From a virus, in IMG/VR virus record IMGVR_UViG_3300040856_002506, positions 1 through 27,165 of that record: DNA of 27,165 nucleotides; one strand, written 5' to 3'. Every line of letters starts with the position of its first letter. Position 1 is the first letter of the stretch. Shown here piece after piece: positions 6,322 to 16,820 of this stretch. The translations under genes were made by a program, and so were the position numbers. Under the pieces are notes generated by a model that made no database searches, was not told the DNA's origin, and worked only from the letters and a program-made list of their open reading frames with translations.

Positions 6322-6657
6322 TTATCTTGTTACTTCTGGAGTTACTGTTACATTTCCCTGTAATAGACGAGTAACTACTCCAGTGCTTGATTCAATTTCT
6401 AAATCATATACATATATACCTTCTTCTATACTAGCTGTTGTAGTTGCGGTGGCTTGTAATCGTATAATACCACCAGAGGCGTTTGCAACACTGCAAGTTA
6501 CAGTAAGTAGTATACTTGTAGAATCGTGTGTTTCTCTAACTTGCATTCTCGGAGTATATCCTGTCAAATCCATAGCCGAGCCACTTTCCTGTACTGTAAC
6601 AGTTCTATCTAATGTTGCTCCCTGTTCTAAAGTGAAATTGTAGCTTCCTGCTGACAT
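6322..6657 (-). CDS. Small beta-sandwich structural protein, first gene of the fiber operon
   Basis: This 111-residue protein begins SAGSYNFTLEQGATLDRTVT and continues with LTGYTPRMQVRE, IRLQATATTTASI and YVYDLEIESSTGVVTRLLQG. The pattern (EQGATF.R.., LTGYTARMQVR, YDLE...G.VTRLLQG.V.V..EVTR) is a widespread small marine phage structural protein. From memory it is related in style to upper-baseplate or fiber-base domains, but I cannot assign a precise family. It is the first gene after the sigma-70 promoter at 6682-6711, with a strong GGAGG ten bases before the ATG. It is probably made in quantity as a fiber adaptor; that role is inferred. Confidence 0.87.
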   Translation of the reverse strand: MSAGSYNFTLEQGATLDRTVTVQESGSAMDLTGYTPRMQVRETHDSTSILLTVTCSVANASGGIIRLQATATTTASIEEGIYVYDLEIESSTGVVTRLLQGNVTVTPEVTR

Positions 6658-7363: not shown

Positions 7364-8197
7364 CTATATGAATGGTGATTCGCAATTAAATATAATGTAC
7401 GAATAATAAATTGGTTGAGAAGCATAAAACTCGTTAATTATTCGACTTCCGCCAAACCACTCCTGATATCTGCCTCCTGAACACTGATTTGTTATTGTTA
7501 AGTTTGTTGTTGTTGTTTCGTAATAAGCGCCTTCATCATAGTCTAAGTCCCATTCTTCATCTCCTTGTTGTGGCTGATTAACTAATTGAAAAACATCAAA
7601 AAATACATTAACCCCGCTCGCCCAGTTATTTCCTGTATATATCAAAGTATCTCCATTATATGCTTTATAAACCTTATTAGCATAAGCAGGAGGACCTCCA
7701 CCAAGTGGACTAGCCGTGATAGAACTATTTACATAAAAACCTCCAGAGGTTACAGTTACGCTTGTTACAGAACCTCCACTAATAGTCGCTGTTGCAGTTG
7801 CGCCTGAAGGAGAGAAAACTATAGTTGGAGCTGTTGTATATCCTGAACCTCCACTCGTTACACTTACAGAAGTAACAAAATAAACGCCAAAGAAAGCATT
7901 ATAAGTAGCTGTAACACTAAAAGTCGCTGCTGTAGTAGGAGGGGCGCCTGTCATATTTGCTTCATTTGTATATGTTACTTCTACAAAAGGTCGAAAACCT
8001 AATCCATGACTAATTGTTCTTGAGGCTCCTCCATTTAATATTCCTTGTCCATGAGCTGCAACATTAAATCCTTTTACTGCGCTGTCCGAATTAAATATGA
8101 GTCCAGAACTTGTAGAAGTTACATCTTCTGTAGGTCTACTTACATATAAACCATAATCTGAAGTTCCTCTTTTTCCTAATAATACTCTATTTGCCAT
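7364..8197 (-). CDS. MANRVLLG-family structural protein, copy 3 (277 residues)
   Basis: The first 40 residues (MANRVLLGKRGTSDYGLYVSRPTEDV, then TSTSSGLIFNSDSAVKG) are shared with the two genes just upstream, and the rest is unrelated to them. The middle carries VTSVSVTSGGSGYTTAPTIV and then SPSGATATATISGGSVTSVT, the GSGYT.AP.V repeat seen in many phage appendage proteins. The C-terminus is Tyr-rich (EGAYYETTTT, YYSYIIFNCESPFI). It starts one base after the stop of copy 2 with no Shine-Dalgarno sequence, so reinitiation is likely. I infer that the N-terminus is a docking tag and the variable C-terminus is exposed. Confidence 0.87.
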   Translation of the reverse strand: MANRVLLGKRGTSDYGLYVSRPTEDVTSTSSGLIFNSDSAVKGFNVAAHGQGILNGGASRTISHGLGFRPFVEVTYTNEANMTGAPPTTAATFSVTATYNAFFGVYFVTSVSVTSGGSGYTTAPTIVFSPSGATATATISGGSVTSVTVTSGGFYVNSSITASPLGGGPPAYANKVYKAYNGDTLIYTGNNWASGVNVFFDVFQLVNQPQQGDEEWDLDYDEGAYYETTTTNLTITNQCSGGRYQEWFGGSRIINEFYASQPIYYSYIIFNCESPFI

Positions 8198-8198
8198 T

Positions 8199-8606
8199 TT
8201 AGAATAAACTTGTGCTTGGTATTCCTTTAAAAAGAAATACTTTAATTGTTTGATCTGTTACAGCTACAGTACCTGACCCAGACGGGTCAGAATAACTTGA
8301 ATCCAGCGTTGTTGAAAATGTCGACCCTGAAGTAAAACTTGTTGTTAGTGCATCTGTTCCTTCTACTAATGCAAAAGAAGTTTCTCCTGTTGCTGTAGTT
8401 ACAGAAGTACTATTATTAACTGTAGTTCCTGCTGCTTGATTGGTACTTGTAATTTCTTCCAATACAATTACATGATCTACTTGGTCTGCACTATCTGTAG
8501 AAAAAATTAATTCATCATCTGGGCAAGTAAGAACATCACTTCCAGAGCGACTAACGTATAACCCATATTGACTTCCTCTTTGTCCTAATAATACTCTATT
8601 TGCCAT
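8199..8606 (-). CDS. MANRVLLG-family structural protein, copy 2 (135 residues)
   Basis: The N-terminus MANRVLLGQRGSQYGLYVSR matches copy 3 and, less strongly, copy 1. It is followed by GSDVLTCPDDELIFSTDSAD and a Thr/Ser-rich beta-type tail ending in TVAVTDQTIKVFLFKGIPST. At DNA level its first 33 bases are almost identical to those of copy 3, which points to recent duplication or exchange of the 5' end. The gap to copy 1 is three bases and there is no clear ribosome site, so translation is probably coupled. It is likely a small tail or fiber protein; no function is known to me. Confidence 0.86.
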   Translation of the reverse strand: MANRVLLGQRGSQYGLYVSRSGSDVLTCPDDELIFSTDSADQVDHVIVLEEITSTNQAAGTTVNNSTSVTTATGETSFALVEGTDALTTSFTSGSTFSTTLDSSYSDPSGSGTVAVTDQTIKVFLFKGIPSTSLF

Positions 8607-8609
8607 AAT

Positions 8610-9209
8610 TTAAGTCCATAATCCATTTGAATTACCAAACGTTGGATGATTTGTACTTCCAAAAGTTTGAGTTGTTCCACTTGCATCTATATAACTGCTT
8701 CCCATAAATCCATAAGCAGAAGGTATTCGTAATACTACAAAAGTTGTAGCGTTGCTTGTTCTATTTTGATGAAAAAGTTGAAAGTCTGTACTACTTAAAT
8801 GTCCTGCCCCCGCAGTTTGTTGAGTAATCCACCCTCCTTCATATGTTTCTTTTGGAGTAAGGGAAGTATTTGTAAGTTCCCAAGCAAAACCTTGATTATT
8901 AAGATTATATAAATCTAAATCATATACTTGATTTCCGTCTACTCTATCTAAGTGATATACTTTGGTTCCTTGTTCAAAAATAAAATACATTGGAATATAG
9001 GTAAGAGTAGGTTTTGAACCACTTGTCCAAGTAATTGTACTCGAAGTAGAAGAACTCGAACCTCCTGCATAAATTTGTCCTGTTCTTGGTTTTGTAGAAT
9101 CAAAAACCAAATTTTTTGCTGCAGTTGTAAGTACATCTTCTCCTTCTTTAGATATTTTTAGTCCATAGTTACTACTTCCTAAATTTCCTAATAAAACTCT
9201 GTTAGCCAC
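8610..9209 (-). CDS. MANRVLLG-family structural protein, copy 1 (199 residues)
   Basis: It starts at a GTG at 9209 behind a good AAGGAGA seven bases upstream, inside the last 22 bases of the glycosyltransferase gene. The first 40 residues (MANRVLLGNLGSSNYGLKIS...GEDVLTTAAKNLVFD) are the family tag. The remainder has aromatic and Gly-rich strands (YIPMYFIFEQGTKVYHLDRV, AYGFMGSSYIDASGTTQTFG) that suggest a beta-rich exposed domain. The tag occurs, as I recall, in many marine phage genomes, always in the tail region. It is co-transcribed with the enzyme operon. No enzymatic residues are visible. Confidence 0.86.
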   Translation of the reverse strand: MANRVLLGNLGSSNYGLKISKEGEDVLTTAAKNLVFDSTKPRTGQIYAGGSSSSTSSTITWTSGSKPTLTYIPMYFIFEQGTKVYHLDRVDGNQVYDLDLYNLNNQGFAWELTNTSLTPKETYEGGWITQQTAGAGHLSSTDFQLFHQNRTSNATTFVVLRIPSAYGFMGSSYIDASGTTQTFGSTNHPTFGNSNGLWT

Positions 9210-10168
9210 TTAATTCTCCTTGTTGTACTCTCTTGGTCATAACATAAATATTGTTCACAGTACCAAGATAAAAACTTTCTACTTTTTTCTTTACTCCACC
9301 AGGATAAATCCTCTATTGAATTTTTTAATTGTGGTAGATGTCTCAAATCTTTTGTTATCCAATGATATTCAGGATAACCATAACTTATAATAGGAACATC
9401 ATACATCATACATTCTATTCCTGCAGTGCTATTTTCAATTATAGCTAATTTAGTTTTTGGTAGTATAGTATGTATACTTTCAAATCCTTCTATTACAGTA
9501 ACACCCATACTTTTCCATAAGTCTATTCTTTTCTTATATTTTTGCCACTCTCCTACTTTTTCAGTTTCTCTTTGTAATGTAGGGTGAATCTTCACAACTA
9601 CTGGATAGTGCTTGTATAACTTATATACTATTGCAATAAGTTTATCCCAATGACTACCAAAAGAGTAATTTAATACAGTAGTATCTCCAGGCATTTGTCC
9701 TACTACGAGAATATGGTCTTCAGGAACTTGTACATCAGTTGATAACATTTTTAATTCTTCTCTATCACTCCATTTGCTTTCTAAATTTTTTATAAAAGTG
9801 GGGATTTTATCATTAAAGAAACTACTCTCATATGTTTCAAAATTAGGTTTTTCGTACGTTACTGAAGAATAACAAGCATAACCCAATTTATCTATAGAAA
9901 AATATTCTGGCGTTGGTGCAGTAGGTTTTAGAAATAAAGATTGTTCTCCTTTAAAAAATTGTAAATCATTTAATTCATCTACGTTTGTGTGATTATATAC
10001 ATAAATTGCATCTGTTTCATCTACGATTGGAGGATAATCAAAATTTAAGTATTTACTTACTTGAATTTCTGCTCCTAAAGACTCAAAAGCATTTAATACT
10101 CTGTCGTACATTGTTTGCCAGTTACCTTGAATATCTCTAAATCTGTGCGCACTTATTTTAACTTTCAT
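9188..10168 (-). CDS. Putative glycosyltransferase, capsule-synthesis (KpsS/LipB-like) fold
   Basis: The 326-residue product has two Rossmann-like halves. The first starts KVKISAHRFRDIQGNWQTMY. The second carries DHILVVGQMPGDTTVLNYS, VVVKIHPTLQRET (about residue 190) and FESIHTILPKTKLAIIENST with AGIECMMYDVPIISYGYPEY (about 229-265). The KIHP, then SIH..LP...(L/A)...NST.G.E......P.I..G pattern is that of capsule polysaccharide transferases of the Capsule_synth/KpsS group, where these residues bind the nucleotide sugar. I preferred the ATG at 10168 (GGGTGG upstream) over a GTG four codons earlier. It overlaps the oxygenase gene by 11 bases. The acceptor is unknown; the neighbouring collagen-like tail tip is the obvious candidate, but that is inference. 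Confidence 0.72.
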   Translation of the reverse strand: MKVKISAHRFRDIQGNWQTMYDRVLNAFESLGAEIQVSKYLNFDYPPIVDETDAIYVYNHTNVDELNDLQFFKGEQSLFLKPTAPTPEYFSIDKLGYACYSSVTYEKPNFETYESSFFNDKIPTFIKNLESKWSDREELKMLSTDVQVPEDHILVVGQMPGDTTVLNYSFGSHWDKLIAIVYKLYKHYPVVVKIHPTLQRETEKVGEWQKYKKRIDLWKSMGVTVIEGFESIHTILPKTKLAIIENSTAGIECMMYDVPIISYGYPEYHWITKDLRHLPQLKNSIEDLSWWSKEKSRKFLSWYCEQYLCYDQESTTRRIKWLTEFY

Positions 10169-10766
10169 TAAACCACCCACTAATTGCTATTCTTTGGTGT
10201 GGTGCACTAGAAGTAACTTCGCTTACAAAGTGGGGAAGTCCTCCATTTGGTAACTCCATAATAGTAAGAGAGTTAAACTCAGGCTGTATAAATTTGCCAT
10301 CTACATGCAACATTCCTCCATATTCAGCTTTCCAATTTTTTGTCAAGTTAAATATAAAAGCAATGCCTCTTTGTGTATCAGTATGTGTACTTAAAAAATC
10401 TCCTCTATCATATACACTAACAAAAGTTTCATACCTTACAGGATTTTTTAAGTAAGTATTCTTCTTTAAAAAAGATACAAACCCATTATCTAAATAAGTA
10501 TTAAACGAACATTCATAACAAGTGCAAGTACTCACATGAGTAGTACTTCTTTTAAATCTATAAGTAACGTACCCTTTCTGTAAGCTTTCTACTATCTTTT
10601 TATCGTAGTCCAAATTTCTAGAATTTAAATCATTTCCTACATATTTTATATCTTCATCAAAAAATTTATAAGTATACTTCCACCAATGTTCGGGAGTTTT
10701 GTAAATTTCTTCATGTAGGTGTTCTGCTAAATCTATAGGAAGAAAGTCCTTGTAAGTTTCTATCAT
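10158..10766 (-). CDS. 2-oxoglutarate/Fe(II)-dependent oxygenase, prolyl-4-hydroxylase-like
   Basis: This 202-residue enzyme has the double-stranded beta-helix signature: iron ligands H128 and D130 (STHTDTQRGIAFIFNLT), distal ligand H179 (NGGLPHFVSEV) and the 2-oxoglutarate-binding R192 (HQRIAISGWF). The YGGML at 149-153 precedes the distal histidine, as in prolyl 4-hydroxylase-type proteins. The family couples 2-oxoglutarate decarboxylation to hydroxylation of a protein or small-molecule substrate. An upstream CTCYEC cluster (C81, C83, C86) could bind a metal or form disulfides and is unusual. It lies two bases after the methyltransferase and overlaps the glycosyltransferase. A collagen-like gpJ sits just upstream, so a virion proline or threonine is a natural but unproven target. 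Confidence 0.82.
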   Translation of the reverse strand: MIETYKDFLPIDLAEHLHEEIYKTPEHWWKYTYKFFDEDIKYVGNDLNSRNLDYDKKIVESLQKGYVTYRFKRSTTHVSTCTCYECSFNTYLDNGFVSFLKKNTYLKNPVRYETFVSVYDRGDFLSTHTDTQRGIAFIFNLTKNWKAEYGGMLHVDGKFIQPEFNSLTIMELPNGGLPHFVSEVTSSAPHQRIAISGWFNES

Positions 10767-10768
10767 AA

Positions 10769-11335
10769 TTAATCCCAGTTAATATTAGTTATTTGTCCAT
10801 TAAAACCTTGACAGACATACATTGGAAAAAACTTTTGTAACTTTTCTATATCTCCAAAGTCGTAGTTTAACTTTGGTAATTCTGCTTTTTTCTTTTTTAC
10901 AATTACTGAAACATCATAGTTATATTGTATTACACTTGCTTTACTGCAATCAAATCCTGCAAGTATAAGATTATATAGTAAGAGTCCTCCATTCCATAAA
11001 CTAACATGACCTCCTACAATATTATGTTTTAAAGGAGGAACTGAGATTGCTAACACTCCTTCTTCTTCTAATAAATTGTATAATTTAGTTAAAAAATAAT
11101 TTATATTTAATTGATGTTCTAGTACATGAGCACACCATATTGCTTCAAATTTTCTATCAAAAGATATTTTGTTGAAGTCTCCTTGATAATCTGAAGATAA
11201 GTAATCTGTTGTAAAACATTCTATTCCTTTTTGTTTAAAAAGTTTTGTAAATTGCTGCTCACCAGAACCTACATCTAGTACGTTTTTAAAGACGTGGTCT
11301 TCAATTAATTTATTAAAAGTTTTTAAAGATCTCAT
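10769..11335 (-). CDS. Class I SAM-dependent methyltransferase
   Basis: The 188-residue product has motif I as VLDVGSGEQQF (19-29), an acidic residue after strand 2 (TTDYL, D44), IWCAHVLEH (66-74) and the EEGVLAISVPP loop (91-101). This is the layout of the Methyltransf_11/23-type small-molecule methyltransferases that often modify sugars or lipids. DNA methylase motifs (NPPY/DPPY) are absent, so a DNA target is unlikely. It is the first gene after the promoter at 11365-11393. Its leader is very short and lacks a Shine-Dalgarno sequence. Grouped with an oxygenase and a glycosyltransferase, it may O-methylate a glycan on the virion; the substrate is inferred. Confidence 0.8.
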   Translation of the reverse strand: MRSLKTFNKLIEDHVFKNVLDVGSGEQQFTKLFKQKGIECFTTDYLSSDYQGDFNKISFDRKFEAIWCAHVLEHQLNINYFLTKLYNLLEEEGVLAISVPPLKHNIVGGHVSLWNGGLLLYNLILAGFDCSKASVIQYNYDVSVIVKKKKAELPKLNYDFGDIEKLQKFFPMYVCQGFNGQITNINWD

Positions 11336-11364
11336 ATTATTATTTTGGCTATTTAATTTTTATA

Positions 11365-11393
11365 ATTATAACAAAATCTAAACCATAAGTCAA
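11365..11393 (-). promoter_or_regulatory. Sigma-70 promoter for the enzyme operon
   Basis: On the minus strand TTGACT (11393-11388) and TATAAT (11370-11365) are separated by the ideal 17 bases. They lie in the 67-bp gap between the end of the gpJ-like gene and the methyltransferase start. Transcription would begin near 11358, giving a leader of about 22 bases without a ribosome site. No terminator precedes it, so gpJ read-through should also reach these genes. Confidence 0.82.
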
Positions 11394-11402
11394 GAAATAT
11401 TT

Positions 11403-14400
11403 TTAGTCCGCTATTATTATTCTACTATTAACTCCATCAAAAATTATTTTACTATTATTTGAACCAACTCCTCCACCTGCTACTACAGAAGTAATTTCAG
11501 TAAAATCTGAATCTGCTGTTCCAGAACCATCATACTCAAAACTTCTTAAACTTGGTAAATGAAAGAACACGTCACCTGCTATTGGATTATTTCCTGTTCC
11601 TCTTAAATTACTAATAGCAGTGTACATAGCACTTCCTGTAGGAACTGCTCCTGCAGCTAGTCCAGAAGTAGTAGAATCAAAGACAACAGCTTTACCTGCA
11701 GCACCTGCTGGTCCTGTAGGGCCTATAGTACCAGTTCCACCTGTCGGTCCTGCTGCACCTGTTGGACCTAACGGTCCTGTTGGTCCTGCTCCACCTACTG
11801 GTCCCGTTGGACCAGCTCCACCTACTGGTCCCGTTGGACCAGCTCCACCTGTAGGTCCTTGTGGCCCTTGTGTACCTTGTATACCTTGAGGTCCTGTAAT
11901 ACCAGTGGCACCTGTAGGTCCTTGTGGCCCTTGTGTACCTTGTATACCTTGAGGTCCTGTAATACCAGTGGCACCTGTAGGTCCTTGTGGCCCTTGTGTT
12001 CCTTGTATACCTTGAGGTCCTGTAATACCTGCGGGTCCTGTTGGTCCTGCCCCACCTGTAGGTCCTTGAGGTCCTACTCCACCTGTTGGACCTGCTGCTC
12101 CTGTTGGACCTGCTCCACCTGTTGGTCCTGCTCCACCTGTTGGTCCTGCTGCACCTGTAGGTCCTACTCCACCTGTAGGTCCTGGAGTTGTTCCTGCGGG
12201 TCCTGTTGGTCCTGGTGTACCAGTTGGTCCTGCTCCACCTGTTGGTCCTGGAGTTGTTCCTGCGGGTCCTGTTGGTCCTGGTGTACCAGTTGGTCCTGCT
12301 CCACCTGTTGGTCCTTGAGGTCCTACTCCACCTGTTGGACCTAACGGTCCTGTTGGTCCTGCTCCACCTACTGGTCCTGTTGGACCTGCTCCACCTGTAG
12401 GACCTTGTGGTCCTCGTGTTCCTTGTATACCTTGTACACCTGTTGGTCCTGCTGCACCTGTTGGTCCTGCTCCACCTTGTGTTCCTTGTATACCTTGTAC
12501 ACCTGTCGGCCCTGCTGCACCTGTAGGTCCTTGTGGCCCTTGTGTTCCTTGTATACCTTGAGGTCCTGTTGGACCTGCTCCACCTTGTGGTCCTGTTGGA
12601 CCTGCTCCACCTGTTGGACCATCGGGTCCTGTTGGTCCTATTCCACCTTGTGGCCCTGTTGGACCTGCTCCACCTGTTGGACCATCGGGTCCTGTTGGGC
12701 CTGGAGCACCTTCCAATCCTTTAGTTACTGCATATAACTCTTCCATACTATAAACTGTGCTACTGTTTGTTGCTACTTTACATAATATGCTGTCTTGTAA
12801 AATAGAAGGTTTAAAACTTTGAAATTCAATAGTCGCGCCTGAATAAGTAGTCTTTACAACTTCATCTACATACATTAATGTATCGCTTTCAATAAATTGT
12901 ATTCTTCCATAATAAGTAACAGGACTAAATGTTAAAGTTACTCCATTTCCTATAGTTTGGGGAGAGCTTAAAGTTATTGAAGTACCACTTATTGCTGTAA
13001 CAAATACACTTGTACTTATTCCTGTTCCAGTTACTTTATGTCCTATTTTTATATTAGAATTTGAAGACCCTATAGTTAAAGCTGTAGAATCACTTATACT
13101 GCCACTTGAAGTAGAAGTTGTAGAACTACCATTAATTATTCTTACTAAATCGCCATTATTAAAATCTGATTCAAAAGAAGTAGAAGTTCCTATTATTGCG
13201 TTATCATTTGCAGACACTGCTATTGTTCCACTTGCAGCTGTTAATCCATTATTAGAAGCACCGACTTCTTTAAAATAAGTAACCGTAGGAGTAATTGAAG
13301 TATCGCTATAAATTTGAACTGCTTTAAATCTATCTGTAGAGTCACTTTCGTCAAATAATAAATAAGCTTCTGCAGATGCTCCCATTCCTGAAAAATCTTG
13401 CTGGTAAGTAGAAGCTGTAGCGCTTGAATTTAAAAATGTTTCTCCACTCGGAGAATCAAATTGATAAGTACTTGAACCAATTTCTAACAATCCTGTAGAA
13501 TCATCAATAGTTACAGTTTGATTAATTGAACCACCTTTAGGAACTAAATCAACTTTAGAAGTAAAGGAATTTCCAAGACTGCTTTCTGCAATTTCAATCT
13601 GTCTAACTGTATATTGAGATACTGTTCCTGAGCTTGAAACAGTTCTGACTTTTATTTTATATATACCTGCTTTTATATTTTTAAATGTTAAAGTTTGAGT
13701 TGTTATATTTGTTTTTATAGTTCTTGCTTCTCCCCTAATATTGTGGGATACTTCAAAACCCGAAGCAAATTTATATCGAGTACCGTTTGAGTTTTCAGGA
13801 AATTTCCAGTTTACAACTAATTGATGTCCTTGTGAATCTGCCGCAGTATTTGTAGAAATAGACCCATCAGATATACTCATAGGTTCTACACTCAAACTAA
13901 TACTATCAGGTGCGGGTACTACATCTTCTGGATTTGGAGAATTATCAACAGGTCTAATATTAAGTTCAAAACCTCTTTCAATCTGTGCAAATTTATTAGC
14001 AGCAAATTCTGCAGCTACTATAGAATATTTATAGTTATCTTCTTCTTTAATAGATATTACTTTGTATTCTTTTACTGTGCCTGTTTTTTCTGTTCCATCG
14101 GAATTAAATAATCTTAATGACCATATAGTTTCTTCCTCTGGAGCTTCACTAAATGCTGAAGATACAGTTAAAGAAGAAACATTTCCTGCAGATGTTGTTA
14201 CAGTTTTAGTCTCTATTCTTACATTTTCTGACCAAAAAACTTGTACGCTATTATTTGAATCATCACTTAAGTTAGCTGCATCAGACTCAGAAGTAATATT
14301 TGGTATTAAATCACCTCTATTATATACTACGCTTGATATAGTTGCAGTCTCTTGTTCTAAATATGCGCCACCTTTAGGGTAAACTAATAATAATTGAGGT

Positions 14401-16820
14401 GGAAAATCACTTGAATAAGAGGGTAAATTAATTGTTCTATCTAAAGGTATTACTGTTGTAGTTTTTGTACCTGTTGCTGAAACTCTTCCTGAATAAGATG
14501 ATCTGTCTCTGTCTGCGTCTTGTACTGTAATAATATCTCCAGGCCCTAAACCTACAGCAGCAATACTTGTTACAAAAGATACTGTTTCTTTTTCTAATCT
14601 TTGACTTAGAAGCTTCCACTTACCTGCTCTATGTGCTTGACCTCTTGATGTACAGCCAAATGCTAAATGTTCGCTTCTTACAATTCTTCCTGTTTCTAGT
14701 ATTCCTTGCTGGTCTTCTACATATTCAGTACTTTGTCTATAATTATCATTTGGGTCATTCCATTGAACTTTTACTTGATTAGTTCTAACTCTATTTCCTG
14801 TTCCTTCATATTGAAAAATTCCTCCTTCTATATTTCCTTTTGTAAAAGCATATACAGGTTCTTTTTCTCTATCAGAAATTGCAGTTACTTGACCATCTTT
14901 CCAAATAGCCATTCCTCTAAAAACACTTGCGAATTGTTTTAATACATTCGTAGCTTCTGCTGCTTTTGATAAGTACACATTAGTTGTAAAACGAGGTTCA
15001 TATCCACCTTCTCCATCAGGAACTAATTCATCACAGTACTTTGCTAATTGAAATAATCCATATTTATCTATATTTGATTTATCTATGAACTGTCCTAATC
15101 CATATCTTTCGTTTGTTAATAAATCATAAAAAACCCATACTGGATTATTGCAATATACTTTTTCATAGTTTACTGATGTTGCATTAAAAGTAGTTATATC
15201 TCCTCTAAAATTACCGTCCCAATTTTGATAAGTACTTTCAGTTGCTCCTGTAGTTATATTTCTTGTATAAGCTGCTGCTCCGCCTGTCTCATCTCTTGTA
15301 AGATAGTTTGTAGGTACTTGTATTTTTAATCCTTTTAATAAGTAAGCTCTTTGAGGTAATTGACCTTCAAAATCAGCAGCATTAAAAGATGTTGAGATAT
15401 AAGAAGTGTACGGATATTTTAACTTATCTTTTATTATAGATTCTATTGTAGCTAAAGTACAAGGGTTTGTATGTCTATAACTGCCATCTATAAAATTCGT
15501 ATCATTAATTCTTCTTACTCTTATTCTCCAGTCATCATAAGGTTGGAATTTATCTGTGATTATCATAAATTCTTCACTAAACTCATTGTATTGAGGTTCG
15601 TTTGGTTTTATATATCCAGTATTTGGAAAACTGCTGGTCGTAATAAAGTTGACATTTCTGTCTCGTCTTCCAGTGCTTCTATTAATAATTTGACTATTGG
15701 TAGGTCCATACAATAGTTCTGAGATATAACTCGAACCATTATCTACACTATACTCAAAGAATATTTGAAGTTCAACAAAAGAAGATTCTTTAGAGCCACT
15801 TGATTTTATTGCGTGACAAGCAGGCAATTTAAAAGTTAAATGAATTTCATCTATTTCGGAAGGATTAGATACTCCTGCAAGAGCTGAAGTTATAATTGTA
15901 TCTTCTGCTGTACCTTCGGATTTTGTCGGCTCATCTAATTCATTATTGTATCCAGAAACTAAATTTCCTCCAGTTCCTACTCTTGCTCTTAAATCTGACT
16001 GTTCTAAACTTATGTTTAATGCAGTGTTTGTTGCTGCAGAACCAAAACCTGTTTCATGTGGTATATAATCTTGATTTCTCTCACCTGACTTAAATTGCAT
16101 TTTGACTTTCTCAAAATTCATTATATCATCATTCTGACCAACGATTGTATTAAGAGCAGATATTTGACAAGATACATTAGAAGTCGTTACAGGAACAGCC
16201 TTAGAAAGTGTTGCTACATTTCCTGATATTGAACTAATACTTGCATTAAAATCTAAAGAAATATTTTTAGAAGATACAGTTACGGCTGCAACATCTTGTA
16301 CTGTAATTTCTGTCGCGCTTACAAAAGTCTTTACTTTAGTTATTAAATCTGTTCCATCTTGTCCTGCTCCTGCTATTCTTATAAAAGCCTCGGGAGTAAC
16401 TGATCTTAAATTTACCATATCAGAAGTAAAGAAAGAACTACTTGTTGTCACTGTATCAGAACCTGCTGTCATACTTGCAATGCCAGTTCCTTGTTTTTCT
16501 GCTCCAACAATAGTTACAGTTCTTGCTCCAAGAGATAGTCCTGATTTATTATTTAAAGTAAGTGAATTTATTTCTCCGAATTGAGAATGAGTAATATTTG
16601 CAGAACCAGCTGTAGTACTTAGTATAACTCTTCGAGGTTTCATTATTTCATTTGCTATATTATCTATAAAAGGTACATCATTTATAAATATAGAAGCAAA
16701 GCCATTTGCTAACCCTTCTATTGGGCCTTCAGAAAGGATATCATATACAACAGCATGTTGTTCCTTATCAGGATGCCTTCTACTACTATTAACTGTTGCT
16801 GGTTTAGTATATTTTGCCAT
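11403..16820 (-). CDS. J: Tail tip attachment protein, lambda gpJ-like, with a collagen-like domain
   Basis: This 1805-residue protein forms the tail tip and host-contact fiber. Residues 1-45 ([19 protein letters not shown]) are a classic gpJ start. The core to about 800 includes [46 protein letters not shown] and [20 protein letters not shown], all typical of gpJ. Residues about 970-1077 look like a fibronectin type III domain. From 1371 to 1708 there are 112 Gly-X-Y triplets with two single-Pro interruptions (GTTP). The last 97 residues form a small C-terminal domain ([20 protein letters not shown]). Lambda gpJ is about 1130 residues, so the collagen and stem are additions. It follows the gpI homologue, and the ATG has AGGAATATAA upstream. 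Confidence 0.93.
11848..12036 (-). repeat. 63-bp tandem repeat, three copies
   Basis: Copies lie at 11848-11910, 11911-11973 and 11974-12036. Each encodes seven triplets ([21 protein letters not shown] or close). The first two are identical as read, and the third differs near one end. High DNA identity over several units suggests recent slippage or unequal exchange. Confidence 0.85.
12172..12303 (-). repeat. 66-bp tandem repeat, two copies
   Basis: Copies at 12172-12237 and 12238-12303 are almost identical and each encode a block containing [16 protein letters not shown]. Each carries one extra proline that breaks the triplet register. The duplication explains why the interruption occurs twice. 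Confidence 0.82.

Follow-up and report, generated by a model that had tools for sequence, protein, structure and literature searches.

Mimivirus encodes collagen-like proteins together with a hydroxylase and a glycosyltransferase that act on them (the lysyl hydroxylase/glucosyltransferase L230, R699 and a prolyl hydroxylase; PMC9546862), and PBCV-1 has a viral prolyl hydroxylase, with evidence of 4-hydroxyproline in viral proteins as summarized in a later survey (Eriksson 1999, cited in PMC9301287). The BclA protein of Bacillus spores is a glycosylated collagen that is rich in Gly-Pro-Thr (GPT) triplets (PMC8968730). In marine phages, 2-oxoglutarate (2OG) oxygenases and folds of prolyl-hydroxylase type are common (PMC12774648). 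Viral P4HA ranks as one of the abundant auxiliary genes in a survey that mentions tail-fibre collagen and finds that the viral use 'remains cryptic' (PMC9301287). The stretch of DNA considered here is an entire IMG/VR record, IMGVR_UViG_3300040856_002506 (27165 b; referred to below as the window), which is almost wholly a tail module on the minus strand and is probably a fragment of the genome of an uncultured, probably marine, phage. Its gpJ-like tail tip protein has a collagen-like domain, and directly behind the tip gene lie genes for a methyltransferase (MT), a 2OG/Fe(II) oxygenase (OXY) and a KpsC-like glycosyltransferase (GT). We think it rather likely that the tail-tip collagen is modified post-translationally by the phage's own enzymes, OXY hydroxylating prolines at the X position of the Gly-X-Y repeat and GT adding a sugar.

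The linkage of oxygenase to collagen was measured on tips sampled through two trait-blind anchors, the gpJ core and a conserved small tail gene, p111. The sample consisted of 65 tips followed by 1 kb or more of sequence; a run of at least 12 triplets was scored as collagen and a 2OG oxygenase (of either of the two families described below) was scored as adjacent within 3.5 kb. Loci from enzyme-seeded searches were excluded from the statistics because of their ascertainment bias. An adjacent 2OG oxygenase accompanies 6 of the 7 collagen tips, as against one of 58 collagen-free tips (L284; Fisher p 5.8e-7), and the proportions are 5/6 versus 1/36 (p 4e-5) when each state is counted once per 50%-identity cluster. 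The first-pass annotation had proposed such a survey of enzymes and collagen-bearing gpJ, and had recognized that an enzyme operon found about as often with a gpJ that lacks collagen would count against it; the association is found, and the frequencies are far from similar. In five of the six collagen tips with an oxygenase, the enzyme belongs not to the OXY family but to a second 2OG family (180-188 aa; PF13640, 1.3e-13) that has no significant similarity to OXY. Since two dissimilar families fill the same slot, shared descent can hardly explain the association. A wider PF13640 search of the sampled records adds one distant match, in L225. The one clear case of OXY and GT behind a collagen-free gpJ is L003, a phage in which two other tail fibres contain collagen.

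The core by which gpJ proteins are recognized is present in the tip protein of the window, and the collagen-like domain comprises 114 Gly-X-Y triplets in three runs (52+7+55), of which 38 are GPT; a collagen-bearing gpJ-like tip had been described before with 112 triplets and is confirmed, apart from the count. Shuffles of the tip with the same composition yield no Gly-X-Y run longer than 11 (mean 5.2). The MT, OXY and GT genes follow the tip gene directly, all four being on the minus strand at the places previously assigned to them. The spacing is 2 nt between MT and OXY, and OXY overlaps GT by 11 nt, as GT does the next gene by 22 nt, which bears out a tight three-enzyme operon. That this operon has its own promoter is no more than suggested: a good sigma-70-type match sits in the 67 nt that separate gpJ from MT, but over the whole region the number of matches of this kind is no higher than chance would give (11 found, 13.2 expected); no terminator was detected.

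OXY has the double-stranded beta-helix (DSBH) fold, the HxD...H iron triad and the 2OG-binding arginine of the OGFOD1/Tpa1-type hydroxylases, and its iron ligands (H128xD130...H179) and R192, the 2OG ligand, are invariant in 22 homologues. A profile of OXY homologues has human OGFOD1 (PDB 4nhx; E 1e-15 to 1e-20) as its first match, in which HxD, H and R are aligned, and after it a putative hydroxylase (PolD), PHD2 and Pseudomonas putida PPHD. The AlphaFold model (22 rows; predicted local distance difference test, pLDDT, 93.9) has PPHD, OGFOD1, Tpa1 and PHD2 as its closest folds, and nearly all of its best matches are protein prolyl hydroxylases. Profile, predicted fold and conserved active site thus argue for the earlier assignment of the oxygenase as prolyl-hydroxylase-like. 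The second domain of OGFOD1 and Tpa1 (Ofd1_CTDD) is absent from OXY, which is a single domain, and a weak match to it appears only in a distant homologue, L132; OXY is therefore likened to these enzymes, in whose manner it would work, and is not filed in their family. Outside the catalytic core of OXY lies a C81xC83x2C86 signature, invariant in the 22 homologues (with H77 in 20 of them) and not seen in the OGFOD1 alignment, which is perhaps a metal site. A 7-row profile search of IMG/VR yielded 37 OXY loci, where the single OXY sequence had found no matches and a 3-row profile only loci already known. Among the INPHARED isolates GT had no match, and OXY a partial and weak one only, so that neither a cultured phage nor a host could be named; the GTDB genomes gave a single partial OXY match, on a Comamonas contig (L299).

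The likeness of OXY to these enzymes also admits a substrate in the host. Tpa1 acts on the ribosomal protein Rps23 and PPHD has been solved with EF-Tu (PDB titles), and in L107-L113 and L120-L123 the OXY homologues stand apart from the tail genes, all of which would suit an enzyme that hydroxylates a host protein (a ribosomal protein or EF-Tu) and that sits behind gpJ because extra genes are often inserted there. Such an enzyme would have no cause to be nearly absent behind collagen-free tips, nor would two 2OG families be expected behind collagen tips, and we regard a host target as unlikely.

The composition of the collagen bears on which of its residues could be modified. Lysine amounts to 0.9% in the triplets of the window and 0.8% over the loci with OXY and GT, which makes modification by way of hydroxylysine, as in mimivirus and animals, unlikely. 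Proline at Y (X-Pro-Gly), the substrate of collagen prolyl 4-hydroxylase (P4H), is scarce, at 2% in the window and 4% over the OXY+GT loci, against 54-58% for proline at X. Proline at X accounts for 54-59% of triplets in loci with OXY and GT, with GT or with the second oxygenase, for 45% in three OXY-only loci and for 37% in a freshwater-like group of phages that have neither enzyme. To judge by these figures, an X-position hydroxylase would fit better than a canonical Y-position P4H. OGFOD1 and Tpa1 are 3-hydroxylases, and animal 3-hydroxyproline is found at the X position. Threonine at Y was considered as a marker of the system and rejected, for its content does not track the enzymes: it is 4% in L207, which has OXY and GT, and 9% in L031, which has GT, versus 51% in the freshwater-like group.

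GT combines the QXXXD motif, the HP motif, the PF05159 domain and the GT-B fold that mark GT107/KpsC-type enzymes. Q158 and D162 of the first motif and K193xH195P196 of the second are invariant in 19 homologues, and the model (pLDDT 90.3) has KpsC as its nearest structure (E 1.8e-9). A sequence alignment with KpsC, albeit weak, puts D162 on D160, the residue replaced by N in mutant entry 8fuw (D160N) and the one proven to be the QXXXD nucleophile (PMC10148158). Because the active site is of the KpsC type, the donor is, by analogy, probably an ulosonic acid activated with cytidine monophosphate (CMP), such as the host's CMP-Kdo (Kdo, 3-deoxy-D-manno-oct-2-ulosonic acid). The 27 kb window has no sugar-pathway genes. 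On newly made chains, then, OXY would hydroxylate the X prolines of Gly-Pro-Y repeats, after which GT would transfer a sugar from such a CMP-activated donor to hydroxyls of the collagen domain (hydroxyproline, or Thr/Ser); MT may trim the glycan, and the resulting fibre might be more stable, more hydrated or differently presenting. A more ambitious proposal, of a new glycoprotein type in which X-Pro-hydroxylated tail-fibre collagen bears a Kdo-like (ulosonic) sugar and the cassette is swapped between unrelated tail types with collagen domains, is one that we consider doubtful.

Co-occurrence of these enzymes with collagen extends over several tail architectures. Enzyme-seeded searches find OXY and/or GT directly behind gpJ tips with collagen in the window, L001, L035 and L207, and with collagen of another tip family in L002, L036 and L117 (the knob of L002 is 87% identical to that of the window). 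In T4-like baseplate phages a collagen fibre comes after the baseplate genes and is accompanied by GT in L031 and L032, and by OXY in L127, where it has 218 triplets. The L041 record has OXY at ~30 kb, GT and MT at ~13.6 kb and a collagen fibre at 40-42 kb, all in the same phage at distances of more than 10 kb. In the two longest of the OXY records, L132 and L133 (169 and 199 kb), whose OXY is more distant, three collagen fibres stand in tandem, each about 1280-1770 aa long. The GT family splits into two clades, and in the one that includes the window 11 of the 18 placeable members stand directly behind a collagen open reading frame (ORF), and tail architectures of three or more kinds are represented among them; of the other seven, two have records with collagen at another place. 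What survives of the first-pass proposal that the phage modifies its tail-tip collagen is accordingly the linkage of a prolyl-hydroxylase-type OXY and a GT to collagen fibres across unrelated tail types; its analogy with Thr-linked glycans on the GPT repeats of BclA finds no support in the Y-Thr figures for L207 and the freshwater-like group, and its counting of MT as a dependable member is not supported either.

These placements, along with the protein-hydroxylase type of OXY, also make it quite improbable that GT (with MT) changes the glycans on the host surface, or small molecules, for example in superinfection exclusion, while OXY serves a metabolite pathway and the collagen is coincidental. 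This alternative draws on the GT fold, which is that of the capsule and lipopolysaccharide Kdo transferases, and on the occurrence of the larger clade of GT and of the closest MTs in T4-like phages without nearby collagen. The small tail proteins of the MANRVLLG type, whose genes come directly after GT in the window, L001 and L002, are a further conceivable substrate in place of collagen. They were rejected, and are in our estimate a most improbable target, on the grounds that genes and enzymes are separately distributed: collagen-free gpJ phages (L142, L145, L158, L184 and L193) keep these genes without the enzymes, and L031, L127, L035 and L036 have enzymes with no copies of these genes detected.

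Modification of collagen by these enzymes has a good deal to be set against it. With clusters at 40% identity the association falls to 2/3 versus 1/13 (p 0.07) and is not significant, and the gpJ tree has just four independent collagen contrasts, the oxygenase following in 4/4 (p 0.125 in a phylogenetic sign test, likewise not significant). L284 has an oxygenase and no clear collagen; L225 is a collagen phage with its sole 2OG match far off. The larger, T4-like GT clade (64 rows) is beside collagen in 0/57, and three of its records, of 49-98 kb, have no collagen that could be seen; the GT family must therefore have other uses as well. The closest relatives of MT (70%) follow DNA polymerase in T4-like phages (the polymerase was named by eye), for which reason MT has been downgraded: its role in a collagen system is uncertain and it is not reliably part of one, with GT+MT or OXY+GT+MT recurring in L037, L114 and L040-L042. 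The freshwater-like group (L239, L241-L246 and L269-L278) has long collagen with neither a PF13640 enzyme nor a GT of this family in the record, so not every phage collagen needs to be modified. Incomplete sets are seen in the fragments L001, L031 and L032 (GT, no OXY) and in L127 (OXY, no adjoining GT), and OXY is present with no collagen found in L037 and L114 (24-34 kb), in L134-L137 (42-90 kb fragments) and in others. Most of the records compared are fragments.

Some features of these loci deserve mention in their own right. In L239, L241-L246, L253, L269, L270, L275, L276 and L278 the long collagen ORF comes right after p111, and these phages would make natural controls for unmodified collagen. 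Another methyltransferase adjoins the collagen/oxygenase pair of L127 (10566-11915), as a 449-aa protein with methyltransferase-like and MptE-like regions. In L132 (9319-13499) and L133 (9327-13536) OXY is clustered with genes for DUF6445, for a GT17 glycosyltransferase and for a second oxygenase-like protein; DUF6445 is also found behind the collagen gpJ of L247. The gpJ C-termini of L247 (1281-7826), L176 and L179 have a segment that, by its look, resembles a Hint/intein-type domain (e.g. CFIAGTPVCLQDG...VHN), followed in L247 by a possible intramolecular chaperone. In the window, the three small tail proteins of the MANRVLLG type lie in tandem (7364-9209) and have the N-terminal module MANRVLLG..GS..YGL in common but unrelated C-termini, as though exchangeable heads were mounted on a single docking module.

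Features of the window and, in the last row, the second oxygenase family in other records
Feature	Position	Strand	Description
gpJ-like central tail fibre / tail tip protein	11403-16820	-	1805 aa; PHROG 31 'central tail fiber J' E 1.3e-140; Pfam Phage-tail_3 (PF13550) 6.8e-26
Collagen-like domain of tip	11688-12719	-	residues 1368-1711; Pfam Collagen 9e-27
C-terminal knob of tip	11403-11687	-	~95 aa; after collagen domain
Promoter-like site	11365-11393	-	TTGACT-17-TATAAT, TG before -10 (extended -10); 11/12 sigma-70 consensus match
MT, class I S-adenosylmethionine (SAM) methyltransferase	10769-11335	-	188 aa; Methyltransf_23 7.4e-10, also Methyltransf_11
OXY, 2OG/Fe(II) oxygenase, protein-prolyl-hydroxylase type	10158-10766	-	202 aa; 2OG-FeII_Oxy_4 3.6e-14, also 2OG-FeII_Oxy_3
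GT, KpsC-like (GT107-like) glycosyltransferase	9188-10168	-	326 aa; Capsule_synth PF05159 6.1e-7
First of three small tail proteins with common N-terminal module (MANRVLLG...)	8610-9209	-	follows GT
p111, conserved small tail gene	6322-6657	-	anchor carrying no information on collagen or enzymes
Second 2OG family behind gpJ	L157:6283-6825, L163:9667-10209, L164:7202-7744, L247:9382-9939, L233:9371-9931, L284:9366-9932		mostly in collagen-bearing phages

Compared with the described systems, the locus resembles mimivirus in uniting virus-encoded collagen, hydroxylase and glycosyltransferase; the glycan there is on hydroxylysine, whereas lysine is ~1% in the collagen of the window, and the locus of the window has a KpsC-like GT, presumably a bacterial host, and a tail fibre as the would-be substrate. 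With PBCV-1 it has a virus-encoded prolyl hydroxylase in common, but that is an algal virus with a canonical P4H, whereas the phage OXY is nearer to OGFOD1/Tpa1 and the collagen proline is at X, not Y. OGFOD1, Tpa1 and Ofd1 come nearest to OXY in the profile comparison and are among its nearest folds, with the same metal and 2OG residues; OXY differs in being a single domain of 202 aa, in its extra invariant CxCx2C and in its presumed substrate. KpsC, a retaining beta-Kdo transferase (GT107, PF05159), shares fold, QXXXD nucleophile and HP motif with GT, which is, in contrast, a single phage-encoded module with a presumed protein acceptor. BclA is like the collagen of the window in being GPT-rich, but nothing points to Y-Thr as the target here or to a GT family common to both. 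The open-access literature that was searched contains no report connecting phage oxygenases with phage collagen by genomic linkage, and none of a KpsC-type enzyme acting on protein. The 'new use of this chemistry' announced in the first-pass annotation is nevertheless too strong a phrase where viruses are concerned, since mimivirus (PMC9546862) and PBCV-1 (PMC9301287) came before. Phages probably decorate their own collagen fibres, chemical proof being confined so far to giant and algal viruses, and the association reported here offers the cryptic viral prolyl hydroxylases a concrete substrate, tail-fibre collagen, with which the question becomes testable. If the proposal is true, hydroxylase and glycosyltransferase sets would be at work on bacterial-type collagen, which to our knowledge is normally without hydroxyproline, and bacteriophages would join the few viruses known to modify collagen.

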